DNA of 64,000 nt from Bacteroidota bacterium (GTDB lineage Bacteria > Bacteroidota > Bacteroidia > Flavobacteriales_C > GCA-002722245): the NCBI GenBank assembly GCA_026390935.1, contig JAPLEZ010000145.1:143961-207960 (forward strand). The letters are read 5' to 3'. The notes under the pieces were generated by a model, which was not told where the DNA came from, did not search any database, and saw only the letters and a list, made by a program, of their open reading frames with translations. Below are positions 17,496 to 62,822 of the stretch, piece after piece. The position numbers and the translations under genes were made by a program. How positions within the stretch are numbered: position 1 is the first letter of the stretch; each line of letters starts with the position of its first letter.

Positions 17496-17538
17496 GGCCA
17501 GGTTAAACTATTGCAAAACGAATGGGAACGCATGGAAA

Positions 17539-17980
17539 ATGGTCCGGTAATGTCCTCCTGACGAAGGAAGGATCTATCGCCCTCTAATTCACAAATCATT
17601 ATATTTGCTTCGCCAACTAAATATTAATGGACCACAATTATTTCGTTTATATTCTTACTAATCCTAAGAAAACAGTTTTATATACTGGTGTTACCAATGA
17701 CTTAGCAAATCGTGTGAATGAGCATTTTGAAAAGCGAGGAAATCCATCTTCGTTTGCAGGAAAATATTATTGTTTTAATTTGATTTACTATGAGCGCTTT
17801 GATCAAATAGAACACGCTATAGAAAGGGAAAAGGAAATTAAAGGATGGAGAAGGGAAAAGAAGGAAAAGTTGATTGTGGCCTTTAATCCGGAATGGAAAT
17901 TTTTAAACAATGAGATGATGGATTTGTGAAGTATAGGGCGATAGATCCTTCCTTCGTCCAGGAGGACATTACCGGACCAT
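17539..17980 (+). mobile_element. GIY-YIG nuclease gene bracketed by family-A REPIN-like arms (inside-out arrangement)
   Basis: Left 17539-17583 atggtccggtaatgtcctcctgacgaaggaaggatctatcgccct; right 17935-17980 agggcgatagatccttccttcgtccaggaggacattaccggaccat; inverted complements apart from one inserted C. ORF 17627-17929 between. Confidence 0.75.
17627..17929 (+). CDS. GIY-YIG nuclease family protein
   Basis: YFVYILTNPKKTVLYTGVTNDLANRVNEHF...AIEREKEIKGWRREKKEKLIVAFNPEW; intact GIY-YIG core, catalytic Arg/Glu positions retained; own TATATTTG box at 17600-17607. Confidence 0.9.
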   Translation: MDHNYFVYILTNPKKTVLYTGVTNDLANRVNEHFEKRGNPSSFAGKYYCFNLIYYERFDQIEHAIEREKEIKGWRREKKEKLIVAFNPEWKFLNNEMMDL

Positions 17981-18063
17981 ATTCACTGCACTTCCGCCAT
18001 TAGTGCCTCGAGGTGACCAATAAATTAAATTTTGCAGTTTGCACTTCTTAGAAAGAATAATTC

Positions 18064-27755: not shown

Positions 27756-27771
27756 CGCATTTCGTATAGAG

Positions 27772-27813
27772 TTTTCTTGTAGAGACGCAAAATTTTGCGT
27801 CTCTACAAGAAAA
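27772..27813. repeat. 42-bp perfect palindrome
   Basis: ttttcttgtagagacgcaaaa|ttttgcgtctctacaagaaaa. Confidence 0.9.
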
Positions 27814-27833
27814 CCCGAGATTGATAAAACAAA

Positions 27834-36795: not shown

Positions 36796-36888
36796 ATAGA
36801 TCCTGAAACAAGTGCAGGATGACATTAGCGGGCATTATCTGAAGAATATGGTTCACATTGGTCATCCTGAACTTGTTTCAGGATCTAT
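36796..36888. repeat. REPIN-like element, arm family B, copy 1 (93 bp)
   Basis: atagatcctgaaacaagtgcaggatgac-[attagcgggcattatctgaagaatatggttcacatt]-ggtcatcctgaacttgtttcaggatctat. Confidence 0.85.
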
Positions 36889-38172: not shown

Positions 38173-38537
38173 AAAATCGTGCAGATATTGAAGCATTGGT
38201 AAATGCATTTTATCTGAAGGTGGAAAAGGACGACGTGATTCGTCATTTTTTTACGGATGTGGTGAAACTGGATTGGAGTAAACATATTCCAGTGATGTAC
38301 GATTTTTGGGAATCCATTCTTTTAAATACGCACAACTACAAAGGAAATCCAATGCCTGCGCATGTTTCTCTCAACGAAAAGTCACCAATGAAAAAGGAGC
38401 ATTTCGACAGATGGATACAACTTTTTTCTGCTACTATAGATGAATTGTTTCAAGGTGAAAAGGCAGAGCAGGCAAAGACAAGAGCATTGTCAATTGCAAC
38501 TGTAATGCAAATAAAAATGATTCAAAAAAGTAAATAG
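38154..38537 (+). CDS. Group III truncated hemoglobin
   Basis: ATG 38154 MVKRDIENRADIEALVNAFYLKVEKDDVIRHFFTDVVKLDWSKHIPVMYDFWESILLNTHNYKGNPMPAHVSLNEKSPMKKEHFDRWIQLF; overlaps the aquaporin end by 19 nt. Confidence 0.85.
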   Translation: MVKRDIENRADIEALVNAFYLKVEKDDVIRHFFTDVVKLDWSKHIPVMYDFWESILLNTHNYKGNPMPAHVSLNEKSPMKKEHFDRWIQLFSATIDELFQGEKAEQAKTRALSIATVMQIKMIQKSK

Positions 38538-38626
38538 ATCCTGAAACAAGTTCAGGAAGACGTTAGCATGTATTATCTGAAGAGTATGGTTCACATTTGT
38601 CATCCTGAACATGTTTCAGGATCTAT
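38534..38626. repeat. REPIN-like element, arm family B, copy 2 (93 bp)
   Basis: atagatcctgaaacaagttcaggaagac-[gttagcatgtattatctgaagagtatggttcacatt]-tgtcatcctgaacatgtttcaggatctat; same length and orientation as copy 1; overlaps the TAG stop of the hemoglobin gene. Confidence 0.85.
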
Positions 38627-41561: not shown

Positions 41562-41881
41562 CCCACCCCTAGCCCCTCCAAGGAGGGGAATTAGTTACTG
41601 AACCATATTCAAATCATTTTCAGGAAATGCCAGCTAATTAATTCCCCTCCTTGGAGGGTGATGACCCAGCATTTGGCAAATCGGCTTTTTTATTGAGAAT
41701 GCTCCGCGCTCACGGCTTCGCCGGCGCGGAATCTTTTTGTTTAGAGCTTAATACGAGGCGAAGCATCTACACAAATAAATACCGCGCCGGCGAAGCCGTG
41801 AGCGCGGAGCGTGAAATCTTAGTTATTTGCCGATTTGCCAAATGCTGGGACATCACCCCTTGGAGGGGTTAGGGGTGGGTT
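41560..41881. mobile_element. Nested palindromic element: REPIN-like arm family C, interrupted by a second and third inverted-repeat element
   Basis: Outer arms aacccacccctagcccctccaaggaggggaa (41560-41590) and ...ccttggaggggttaggggtgggtt (ending 41881); core ttagttactgaaccatattcaaatcattttcaggaaatgccagctaattaa. Confidence 0.8.
41659..41855. mobile_element. MITE-like insertion (197 bp) inside the right arm of the family-C element
   Basis: 27-bp TIR tgatg(a/t)cccagcatttggcaaatcggc at both ends (1 mismatch); flanked by direct repeat ccttggaggg (41649-41658 and 41858-41867). Contains a further 29-bp perfect inverted repeat gctccgcgctcacggcttcgccggcgcgg (41701-41729 / 41782-41810). Confidence 0.75.
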
Positions 41882-50613: not shown

Positions 50614-50720
50614 TAAAGGGCGATAGATCCTTCCTTCGTCAGGAGGACAAATGTGAACCACACTCGGCAGGAAATGCCCGCTAATGTCCTCCTGACGAAG
50701 GAAGGATCTATCGCCCTTTA
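50614..50720. repeat. REPIN-like element, arm family A, copy 1
   Basis: taaagggcgatagatccttccttcgtcaggaggaca-[aatgtgaaccacactcggcaggaaatgcccgctaa]-tgtcctcctgacgaaggaaggatctatcgcccttta. Confidence 0.85.
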
Positions 50721-50775
50721 AATAATACTGCTCCTGCTTAATCGCGCTTCTTTTTAAAATATTTTTTTCGGGAGT

Positions 50776-50803
50776 AGGGGTAAGTTCTTTTTATGTTGTC
50801 TTA
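50776..50803 (+). promoter_or_regulatory. Candidate ECF promoter (copy 1 of the duplication)
   Basis: aggggta agttctttttatgtt gtctta. Confidence 0.6.
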
Positions 50804-50904
50804 AAGCAAAACATAAAAATTATGAAACATTTAAAACTACTTTTCACCATTGTCTTTTTCAATCTCTCTTTATTTTGTTTTGCTCAAGAGCTTTTTTCTG
50901 GAGT

Positions 50905-50932
50905 AGGGGTATGTCCTTTTTATGTTGTCTTA
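50905..50932 (+). promoter_or_regulatory. Candidate ECF promoter (copy 2 of the duplication)
   Basis: aggggta tgtcctttttatgtt gtctta. Confidence 0.6.
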
Positions 50933-50950
50933 AAGCAAAACATAAAAATT

Positions 50951-52078
50951 ATGAAACATTTAAAACTACTTTTCACCATTGTCTTTTTCAATCTCTCTTT
51001 ATTTTGTTTTGCTCAAGAGCAAGACAGCGCAGCGGAAAAGCAAAGAGATTTTCAACTCACGTTCGTTACTCCTATGGGAACCAATGGAGTGGAGTCGCAC
51101 AAAACAATTAATAAATTATCCGTCAATATTTTGGCTGGTGTAGCCAAGGGAGTGAATGGTATTGAGCTGGGCGGATTCAGCAATGTAATTTTGCAAGATG
51201 TACATGGAATTCAGGCTTCGGGCTTCAGCAATGTTGTGCTAGGAAAGGTGCAGGGAGCGCAGTTTTCTGGATATGTCAATTTTAATAAAGACAGTTTAAC
51301 AGGCGCACAATTTTCGGGATTTACCAACGTGAATTTAGGAAATACCAAAGGTGCGCAACTCACTGGTTTTGCTAATTACAATCGTAAAAATTTAGTCGGA
51401 CTGCAAGGTAGTGGATTTACCAATGTGAATTTGGGTACCTTGAAAGGCGCTCAACTAGCGGGTTTTGCCAACATTAATTCGGGTGATGTTGATGGCTTGC
51501 AGGCGAGTGGATTTATCAATTATGCGCGCAAAGTAAAAGGTGCACAATTGGGCTTTATCAATATAGCGGATTCAGTGGATGGCGCGTCAATAGGATTTCT
51601 TAGCATAGTAAAAAAGGGAATGCATCAAGTGGAATTGTCGGCCGATGAATTGTTTTACGGTAACGTTGCAGTAAGAACAGGAACCCATTTATTTCATAAT
51701 ATTTTTAGCGTTGGAGCGGCATCTAATTCGTCGGGTTTATTGTGGCACGTTGGATATGGAATAGGTACTTCTTTTCGTATCAACGATAAAATTCGCAGCG
51801 ATTTAACTCTTTCTACACAGCACGTGAGCAAAGGGTTATTTCATTTCGGCACCAGTGAATTGTACAAAGTTTACCTTGGTGTGGAATATCGTTTAGCGCC
51901 TAAAATCAGTATTGCTGCGGGACCAACCTTTAACTTGTTTGTGAGTGATGCTTTGCTTCCTGAATATACTGGAATTTATGATGGCATTGCTCCCTATTCC
52001 ATTTTGAATGAAACCAACAGCAATGGCTTCAATGTGAAGGCATGGGTTGGCGGAAAAGTCGCCTTTCGCTTTTTGTAA
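50951..52078 (+). CDS. GxQxAGFxN repeat surface protein, paralog of the C-terminal part of 48761-50581
   Basis: MKHLKLLFTIVFFNLSLFCFAQEQDSAAEKQRDFQLTFVTPMGTNGVESHKTINKLSVNILAGVAKGVNGIELGGFSNV...; ORF track starts at the duplicated upstream ATG 50822, in frame. Confidence 0.75.
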   Translation: MKHLKLLFTIVFFNLSLFCFAQEQDSAAEKQRDFQLTFVTPMGTNGVESHKTINKLSVNILAGVAKGVNGIELGGFSNVILQDVHGIQASGFSNVVLGKVQGAQFSGYVNFNKDSLTGAQFSGFTNVNLGNTKGAQLTGFANYNRKNLVGLQGSGFTNVNLGTLKGAQLAGFANINSGDVDGLQASGFINYARKVKGAQLGFINIADSVDGASIGFLSIVKKGMHQVELSADELFYGNVAVRTGTHLFHNIFSVGAASNSSGLLWHVGYGIGTSFRINDKIRSDLTLSTQHVSKGLFHFGTSELYKVYLGVEYRLAPKISIAAGPTFNLFVSDALLPEYTGIYDGIAPYSILNETNSNGFNVKAWVGGKVAFRFL

Positions 52079-60896: not shown

Positions 60897-60994
60897 AGGG
60901 CGATAGATCCTTCGTTCGTCAGGAGGACATTACTTACCCATATTGGTATTTCCACTCTGGCTGTCCTCCTGACGAAGGAAGGATCTATCGCCCT
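60897..60994. repeat. REPIN-like element, arm family A, copy 2
   Basis: agggcgatagatccttcgttcgtcaggaggacattacttacccatattggtatttccactctggctgtcctcctgacgaaggaaggatctatcgccct. Confidence 0.85.
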
Positions 60995-61016
60995 GTAAGT
61001 ATTAATTAATTATTCA

Positions 61017-62822
61017 ATGACTGATCATATCACCGATATTTTAAAAACGCTTCCCGACAATCCCGGCGTGTATCAGTTTTTTGATGCGCAGGGAAAGCTC
61101 ATCTACGTAGGAAAAGCGAAGGTTTTAAAAAACCGTGTGCGCTCGTACTTCAATAATTTAGCAAGTCATCATGGCAAAACAAAAGCACTTGTTAGAAACA
61201 TCCGCGACATAAAATATATTTTGGTGGAAAGCGAGCAGGACGCGCTCCTACTGGAAAATTCGCTCATCAAACAATACTTGCCGCGTTACAATATCCTGCT
61301 CAAGGATGATAAAACCTATCCTTGGATCTGTATTAAAAACGAAAGGTTTCCGCGTGTATTTTCTACCCGGAAAATGATCAGGGACGGCAGTCAGTATTTT
61401 GGTCCTTATGCTTCGGGAAGAATGATTTTTACTTTGCTGGATTTCATTCATGAGTTGTTTCCTTTGCGCAATTGCAACCTCAATCTTTCCAGTGAAAACA
61501 TTGGGAATAAAAAATTTAAAGTGTGTTTGGAATACCACATTGGGAATTGTGCCGGACCATGTGAATCAAAGGAAATAGAGGAAGAATACAACGCGAAGAT
61601 TGCTCAGATTAAGAATATTCTGAAAGGAAATATTTCCACGGTGATTCAGCATTTGAAACAAATGATGCAATTGCATGTGGAGAAAATGGAATTTGAAAAA
61701 GCACAAATCATTAAAGAAAAACTGGAGGTACTGGCGAATTATCAAAGCAAGTCGACAGTGGTAAGTCCTACCATAAAAAATATTGATGTTTTCAGCATTG
61801 TAAGCAAAGAAGAAGAGGCCTATGTTAATTATTTAAAAGTTGTGGATGGTGCGATTGTACAGGGACATACGGTGGAAGTGAAAAAGAAGCTGGATGAAAC
61901 GGATGAAGAAATTTTATTGCTGGCCATAGTGGAATTGCGCGAAAGATACCAAAGTGATGCGCCGGAAATCATAGTTCCTTTTGTTCCTGAATTGCAATTA
62001 AGTGGCGTAGAATGGACGCTTCCGCAGCGTGGTGATAAAAAGAAATTACTGGAATTATCAGAGCGCAACGCAAAATTTTTCGGACTCGAAAAAAAGAAAT
62101 CGGCTACAATCAATAAGCCTCTGGAAAAATCTTTAAGAATTTTAGAGCAGATGAAAAAAGATTTGCGACTCTCGCAATTGCCTGTGCACATTGAGTGTTT
62201 TGATAATTCCAACATTCAGGGAGCTTTTCCGGTTTCGGCTTGCGTGGTGTTTAAAAATGCAGTGCCGAGCAAAAAAGATTACCGCATTTTTAACATCAAA
62301 ACAGTAGAAGGTCCAGATGACTTTGCTTCCATGGAAGAAGTGATTTTAAGGCGCTATAAACGCATGTTGGATGAAGCGCAGGACTTACCTCAGCTCATTG
62401 TGATTGATGGCGGAAAAGGGCAGCTGAGTGCTGCGCTGGAGAGTTTGGAAAAACTGGATTTGCGTGGAAAAATTGCCATCATAGGCATTGCCAAACGTTT
62501 GGAAGAAATTTATTTCCCTGGAGATTCCGTCCCGCTTTATTTGGATAAACGATCGGAGAGTTTAAAAGTGATTCAGCAGCTGCGCAACGAAGCACATCGT
62601 TTCGGGATCACTGCACACCGCAATCGCCGTTCAAAAGCACTCACGCAAACGCGTTTGAAAGACATTCCGGGTGTGGGTGAACAAACCATACAAATTTTAT
62701 TGCGCCACTTTAAATCGGTGAAAAAAGTGAGTGAAGCTTCCTTTGAAGAGCTGGATGCCTTGCTTGGAAAAACCAGAGCAGAAGCAGTTTTTAAGGGTTT
62801 GAGTGAAGAGGAGAAGAAATAA
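61017..62822 (+). CDS. uvrC: Excinuclease ABC subunit C
   Basis: LPDNPGVYQFFDAQGKLIYVGKAKVLKNRVRSYF...IECFDNSNIQGAFPVSACVVFKNAVPSKKDYRIFNIKTVEGPDDFASMEEVILRRY...IPGVGEQTIQILLRHF. Confidence 0.96.
   Translation: MTDHITDILKTLPDNPGVYQFFDAQGKLIYVGKAKVLKNRVRSYFNNLASHHGKTKALVRNIRDIKYILVESEQDALLLENSLIKQYLPRYNILLKDDKTYPWICIKNERFPRVFSTRKMIRDGSQYFGPYASGRMIFTLLDFIHELFPLRNCNLNLSSENIGNKKFKVCLEYHIGNCAGPCESKEIEEEYNAKIAQIKNILKGNISTVIQHLKQMMQLHVEKMEFEKAQIIKEKLEVLANYQSKSTVVSPTIKNIDVFSIVSKEEEAYVNYLKVVDGAIVQGHTVEVKKKLDETDEEILLLAIVELRERYQSDAPEIIVPFVPELQLSGVEWTLPQRGDKKKLLELSERNAKFFGLEKKKSATINKPLEKSLRILEQMKKDLRLSQLPVHIECFDNSNIQGAFPVSACVVFKNAVPSKKDYRIFNIKTVEGPDDFASMEEVILRRYKRMLDEAQDLPQLIVIDGGKGQLSAALESLEKLDLRGKIAIIGIAKRLEEIYFPGDSVPLYLDKRSESLKVIQQLRNEAHRFGITAHRNRRSKALTQTRLKDIPGVGEQTIQILLRHFKSVKKVSEASFEELDALLGKTRAEAVFKGLSEEEKK

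Follow-up and report, generated by a model that had tools for sequence, protein, structure and literature searches.

A stand-alone GIY-YIG nuclease gene flanked by outward-tagged REPs is a candidate for the enzyme that spreads CGTC-tagged repeats

The window analyzed here is a 64,000-nucleotide stretch of a Bacteroidota genome. It contains a small stand-alone GIY-YIG nuclease gene bracketed by inverted arms at 17530-17597 and 17921-17989 (95% and 90% complementary), together with several gene-less copies of related repeats. An initial annotation of the sequence had described an intact GIY-YIG gene between two inverted copies of a repeat designated family A, and gene-less copies of the arm with the opposite orientation elsewhere in the window; both descriptions were borne out. 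The features are as follows:

17530-17550, no strand assigned: core-like sequence beyond the left tag; it is complementary to 17969-17989 and similar to REPIN cores
17551-17582, plus strand: left family-A arm, TGTC tag outward from the gene, CTATCGCCC tail on the gene side
17600-17607, plus strand: TATATTTG, putative, resembling the Bacteroidota -7 promoter element, between the left arm and the gene
17627-17929, plus strand: stand-alone GIY-YIG nuclease gene, 100 aa, PF01541 at 61.9 bits, proposed REP-associated enzyme
17936-17968, minus strand: right family-A arm of 33 nt with an additional C in its loop region, tag facing away from the gene
17969-17989, no strand assigned: core-like sequence outside the right tag, inverted-repeat match to 17530-17550
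36798-36886, no strand assigned: family-B REPIN with AGATCCTGAAACAAGTTCAGGATGACA arms, gene-less, missing at the orthologous site in genome G007
38536-38624, no strand assigned: family-B REPIN, gene-less, missing at the orthologous site in G007
50618-50716, no strand assigned: gene-less family-A REPIN, head-to-head dimer with tags facing the core, DNA fold z = -13.6
60898-60993, no strand assigned: gene-less family-A REPIN, head-to-head dimer immediately upstream of uvrC

In a Pfam profile search, the only match of the arm-flanked gene was PF01541 (GIY-YIG), well above the gathering cut-off of 22.6 bits; the gene itself gave no match to a HUH tyrosine transposase of the IS200/IS605 type. Catalytic residues were assigned by comparison with the known GIY-YIG family. 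R29, H33, E68 and N87 are invariant or conserved in an alignment of 11 sequences, and judged by these residues the nuclease is predicted to be catalytically intact. The gene had also been credited with its own promoter; the TATATTTG element is present at 17600-17607, and a promoter role for it remains putative. The other GIY-YIG gene of the window, uvrC, is preceded by a family-A REPIN (region 60898-61300).

The family-A arm core occurs five times in the 64 kb at up to three mismatches, compared with an expectation of 0, and the right-hand arm at the gene, which carries a one-base insertion (CGTCC), constitutes a sixth copy. Since the arm is also found 42 times in the 3.76-Mb source genome, where a reversed control pattern is found 0 times, these are not chance matches. 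Complete REPINs fold very strongly (DNA fold z of -13.6 and -9.8). By sequence, the window arms belong, with their TGTC tag, to the CGTC-tagged REP superfamily, which Di Nocera, De Gregorio and Rocco established in 2013 and which includes Neisseria dRS3 and Rickettsia RPE-4 and RPE-6 (PMC3733652). Traits of the superfamily are an unpaired CGTC (or TGTC/CCTC) tag at one end, an adjacent 8-9 bp stem with a 4-5 nt loop, a short and mostly CCA tail, and a predominance of head-to-head dimers (PMC3733652). These REPs were reported to "apparently lack a dedicated transposase", and the enzyme that moves them was left as the closing question of the survey, in which GIY-YIG is unmentioned (PMC3733652).

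Other repeats were noted in the window. A 129-nt unit in two tandem copies (50763-51020, 98% identical) directly follows a family-A REPIN, and a perfect 22-bp inverted repeat with zero spacer, GTTTTCTTGTAGAGACGCAAAA/TTTTGCGTCTCTACAAGAAAAC, lies at 27771-27814. A cluster of other nested inverted repeats (including CCCTCCAAGGAGGGG and GCTCCGCGCTCACGG) occupies 41574-41858; because G007 carries a family-A REPIN at the orthologous spot, this region may be an insertion hot spot.

Three REP families are present in the source genome, and each is accompanied by a GIY-YIG gene of its own, that of family C being a stop-broken copy. In family A, the arm end that faces the core is TGTC (outward-in reading TGTCCTCCTGACGAAGGAAGGATCTATCGCCC), and nearly all copies beyond the gene are arranged convergently, in pairs that span about 90-110 bp around a variable core. 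Family B comprises 93 arm copies with the sequence TGTCATCCTGAACTTGTTTCAGGATCT, and family C at least 15 with the sequence CGTC[CA]TTGCGA...GAAGCAATCTC. The tag is TGTC in families A and B, almost all of which form convergent tag-in pairs, and CGTC in family C. The family-B arm has an 8-bp stem and a 5-nt loop (fold z = -4.0), the family-A arm folds weakly (z = -0.95) into a short stem with mismatches, and the family-C arm has an internal loop in its predicted fold. Tails are CTA in family B and CTATCGCCC in family A, rather than the short CCA type, which does end several alphaproteobacterial arms. As a separate observation, family-C dimers are tag-out with a spacer of ~80 nt, in contrast to the tag-in dimers of A and B, and three family-C copies share sequence outside their tags (L170-L173).

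PF01541 is found at five places in the source genome: the window gene, the C17 gene, the C114 gene, the stop-broken copy on C5, and uvrC. The C17 gene is flanked by family B with outward tags, as at the window gene, and its stop codon lies inside an arm; the C5 copy is flanked by family C. The C114 gene represents another, tRNA-linked kind. This diverged kind was seen directly beside a tRNA gene (Val, Ala or Asn) at L001 1377-1754, L044 540-1000 and L051, followed by a partial or degenerate tRNA copy, a pattern reminiscent of elements that duplicate tRNA segments.

Homologs were sought across 85,462 species genomes, which yielded 80 loci; only best matches were retained, and the set is hence biased to Bacteroidota. 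The motif TGTCAT[TC]C, for which the background frequency is about 0.07 per kb on each strand, is present in outward orientation within 300 bp upstream of 54 and downstream of 57 of 79 GIY-YIG loci. With a broader tag, outward copies on both sides were detected at 47 of 75 GIY-YIG genes as opposed to 7 of 696 other ORFs of the same loci, in Bacteroidota and neighboring phyla; small non-GIY-YIG ORFs were flanked on both sides in 6 of 127 cases. Inverted repeats between the two flanks (score of at least 20) were found at 26 of 79 GIY-YIG loci and in 3 of 232 cross-paired controls. Plasmid-collection records searched by protein provided loci in Alpha-, Beta- and Gammaproteobacteria and one cyanobacterium. 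At these mainly proteobacterial loci, outward-tagged arms lie on both sides of 11 of 15 GIY-YIG genes (three of the 15 loci being near-identical Sphingobium strains) versus 12 of 157 other ORFs. Strong inverted arms are present at Sinorhizobium, Neorhizobium, Rhizobium, Sphingobium, Novosphingobium, Azospirillum, Aeromonas and Neisseria loci, with outward-tagged sequences such as CGTCATCCTCGGGCTTGACCCGAGGATCCA in Sinorhizobium and CGTCATCCCAGGGCTTGACCCTGGGATCCA in Rhizobium. In Neisseria gonorrhoeae, a dRS3-type CGTCATTCCCGCGCAGGCGGGAATCC adjoins an apparently degenerate GIY-YIG copy.

Among the 99 loci with enough flanking sequence, 38 show one lone arm per side, 34 carry a complete REPIN on one side or both (11 on both), and 10 lack arms altogether. 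The inside-out orientation was described correctly for the window gene; it recurs across phyla and is thus the normal form of the gene unit. The initial annotation had accounted for it by insertion of a circular molecule opened within the core or, alternatively, by the gene's position between elements. Given that the layout is general, with mostly a single outward-tagged arm per side, no special circular event is needed at the window, and circular-molecule insertion was dropped as unnecessary; the alternative matches the general layout, which resembles that of RAYT REPtrons. In several Bacteroidota genomes, tandem arrays of the GIY-YIG gene and its arms were also observed (L225, L224, L228, L220/L221).

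Arm anatomy was computed on 159 gene-proximal arms. In 46% of arms, as compared with 3% of shuffles, the five bases that follow the tag pair with a five-mer further downstream, and these outer stems covary (ATTCT, ATCCT, ATCCC, ATTCC, ACCCC, GCCCC and ATTGC). A tandem GA/GA mismatch follows the outer stem in 55% of arms and 0.3% of shuffles; a hairpin test that required perfect stems yielded a weak signal in Bacteroidota arms until this mismatch was allowed. Distances between arms and distances between proteins are correlated (Mantel r = 0.55, 0 of 2000 permutations), and within a locus the upstream and downstream arms resemble each other more closely than do arms from different loci. Host phylogeny contributes to the correlation, a problem from which within-genome cases are free. 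Orthologs of the window clade, 71-79% identical to the window protein, occur in three congeneric genomes with TGTC[AC]T[CT]CTGA-type arms, while a second clade has CGTCNTTGCGA-type arms. In one genome, G008, the two clades coexist with a separate arm type each, a pattern that host ancestry alone does not explain. Sequence comparison thus indicates that the arms co-diverge with the nuclease.

The proposal that repeat copy number tracks the presence of the nuclease held in part. Across 198 Bacteroidota genomes, presence of one REP pattern is associated with that of GIY-YIG matches (odds ratio 4.4, p = 3e-5, Spearman 0.42, values that carry no phylogenetic correction). The correlation is loose and imperfect: the one pattern searched, which is narrow, is missing from 69 of 116 GIY-YIG-positive genomes; G011 has 137 arms, yet its GIY-YIG domains, checked with PF01541, lie only within larger proteins; and G007 has 17 family-A arms without a gene of the family-A clade. 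In view of such clear exceptions, use of the pattern as a strict marker of GIY-YIG was rejected. REPs that outlast the loss of their enzyme might explain G011 and G007. Family A reaches its highest copy number and greatest uniformity in the genome that has the matching gene, where 17 of 42 copies are exact (G000), as against 1 of 17 in G007 and 0 of 13 in G009. The central idea of the initial annotation, a GIY-YIG nuclease paired with a palindromic-repeat family, had been staked on flanking of homologs and on co-presence; homologs are generally flanked, co-presence is loose, and the idea survives on both counts.

Several comparisons indicate that the unit and its repeats are mobile. The order response regulator-orf86-rnr is kept in G007 and G009 (RNase R 91% and 89% identical to that of the source genome), and the gene unit is absent there; the gap is about 16 bp in G007 and roughly 130 bp in G009, compared with about 585 bp with the unit in the window. 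The four congeneric orthologs have no neighboring genes in common within 6 kb. The two family-B REPINs of the window (36798-36886 and 38536-38624) correspond to empty orthologous sites in G007, at which no clear target-site duplication was seen, the flanks being too diverged. In G148, a 606-bp gene-containing unit is present on two contigs at 93% identity with unrelated flanks; the duplicate is not cut exactly at the tags, as homology runs past them and one copy lacks an outer arm half. On Sphingobium plasmids, the unit lies between fnrL and a response regulator in several strains and is absent from TYG72, TYG65, TYG64 and TYG74; in the last two, a double-tagged probable scar of joined outer arm halves takes its place. 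The positions of the gene between sufB and sufC in Azospirillum and inside a DISARM locus in Planktothrix fit expectations for a mobile gene. Phage carriers were sought as well, with no match in 50,697 phage records.

We consider it probable that the gene, together with the two arms whose tags point outward, makes up a REPtron-like unit in which the GIY-YIG nuclease fills, for CGTC/TGTC REPs, the role that the RAYT transposase fills for GTAG REPs. The observations behind this reading are outward flanking across phyla, arm-enzyme co-divergence and one REP family per GIY-YIG lineage in the source genome, along with insertion polymorphism of the unit and of REPINs, intragenomic duplication and conserved catalytic residues. 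We infer that the nuclease would recognize the tag and the adjacent imperfect hairpin of its own REP subfamily and cut there, and that cutting would drive mobilization. Repair or replication across the cut would then copy or move REP dimers (REPINs) in trans and, more rarely, spread the gene-bearing unit itself. Cleavage by GIY-YIG enzymes is hydrolytic and does not pass through a covalent DNA-protein intermediate, so spread would probably proceed via host repair rather than by classical transposition. In its broadest form, the proposal is that lineage-specific GIY-YIG nucleases have spread CGTC-tagged REPs, dRS3 included, across many phyla through hydrolytic cuts at tagged, GA/GA-mismatched hairpins followed by host repair; this extension we advance tentatively, as slightly short of an even prospect.

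Alternatively, the nuclease might be a homing-type parasite that cuts CGTC-type REPs and is copied into them, the REPs themselves being multiplied by something else. GIY-YIG homing endonucleases are known, 11 of 99 loci have the gene between adjacent complete REPINs, and the gene-less site of Sphingobium TYG64 and TYG74 (CGTCACCCCGGG-TCAAGCCCGGGGTGACG, with small differences in TYG74) is a single double-tagged palindrome in which the exact left and right outer arm halves are joined, as if the gene had split a palindrome. Double-tagged palindromes are otherwise very rare, however (0 in the genus of the source genome and two plasmid records); they were accordingly rejected as a common insertion target, and the Sphingobium site is more likely a deletion scar. 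In addition, the homogeneous family-A subtype is commonest where its nuclease is present (17 exact copies in G000, 1 in G007 and 0 in G009), which suggests that the nuclease drives REP number. On balance, homing is unlikely.

The gene and arms could also be passive neighbors that accumulate in the same intergenic regions, or the arms could act in gene control as terminators or as protecting or repressing hairpins, with no enzyme-substrate relation in either case. REPs are mostly located between genes (PMC3733652), complete REPINs fold very strongly, and different palindromic elements fill the fnrL-response regulator gap in TYG72 and TYG65 (loci L214 and L217). Nevertheless, the scarcity of other ORFs flanked on both sides at the same loci (7/696, and 6/127 for small ORFs), the co-divergence of arms with protein, and the different arms of GIY-YIG clades within one genome make either reading very unlikely. 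Finally, a domesticated nuclease might resolve or trim REP hairpins, its own arms serving as autoregulatory substrates. Structure-specific nucleases do occur among GIY-YIG enzymes, and the arms form hairpins with conserved mismatches, but patchy presence, broken copies, unrelated contexts and empty sites point to a mobile, dispensable gene, and we regard this housekeeping role as highly improbable.

Taken together, these data single out the nuclease as the strongest candidate so far for an enzyme by which a large class of bacterial repeats is spread. The enzyme question of the 2013 CGTC-REP survey can now be tied to a specific candidate, and because matched enzyme-repeat pairs coexist in individual genomes, the question is directly testable in vitro and in laboratory strains. 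Under the broadest form of the proposal, mobility would be transposase-free, parallel to RAYT-REP and independently evolved. If the REPtron-like reading is true, small genes annotated in many genomes as "GIY-YIG nuclease family protein" or "excinuclease ABC subunit C" would encode repeat-spreading enzymes, and families such as dRS3 would gain an explanation.

No bacterial paper linking GIY-YIG to REP, REPIN, MITE, RAYT, dRS3, the CGTC tag or palindromic repeats was found in the open-access literature; enzyme domain, repeats and REPtron concept are all known individually, and their combination appears to be new. The closest solved structures to the window protein by sequence are stand-alone GIY-YIG proteins of the UPF0213/YhbQ-like type (PDB 1zg2, E = 2e-5; 1ywl, E = 0.03). 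With homing endonucleases of the I-TevI type, the gene shares a selfish GIY-YIG character, a patchy distribution and a sequence-linked target, although its product is a single domain of ~100 aa with no separate DNA-binding domain recognized by Pfam, no intron or intein is involved, and the target is a dispersed palindrome. The repeats resemble CGTC-tagged REPs in their CGTC/TGTC tag, adjacent stem-loop, extragenic multi-copy distribution and predominance of head-to-head dimers, and family B also in its 8-bp stem, 5-nt loop and short tail; many Bacteroidota arms differ in having a shorter outer stem, a tandem GA/GA mismatch, and CTA/TCT-type tails instead of CCA. As in RAYT REPtrons and REPINs, a small enzyme gene is flanked by inverted REPs that are dispersed in its own genome, gene-less repeat dimers occur, and one genome can hold several enzyme-repeat pairs. 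In contrast to the RAYT/GTAG system, the enzyme here is a GIY-YIG nuclease unrelated to HUH tyrosine transposases, the tag is TGTC/CGTC instead of GTAG, and the gene unit looks more mobile.
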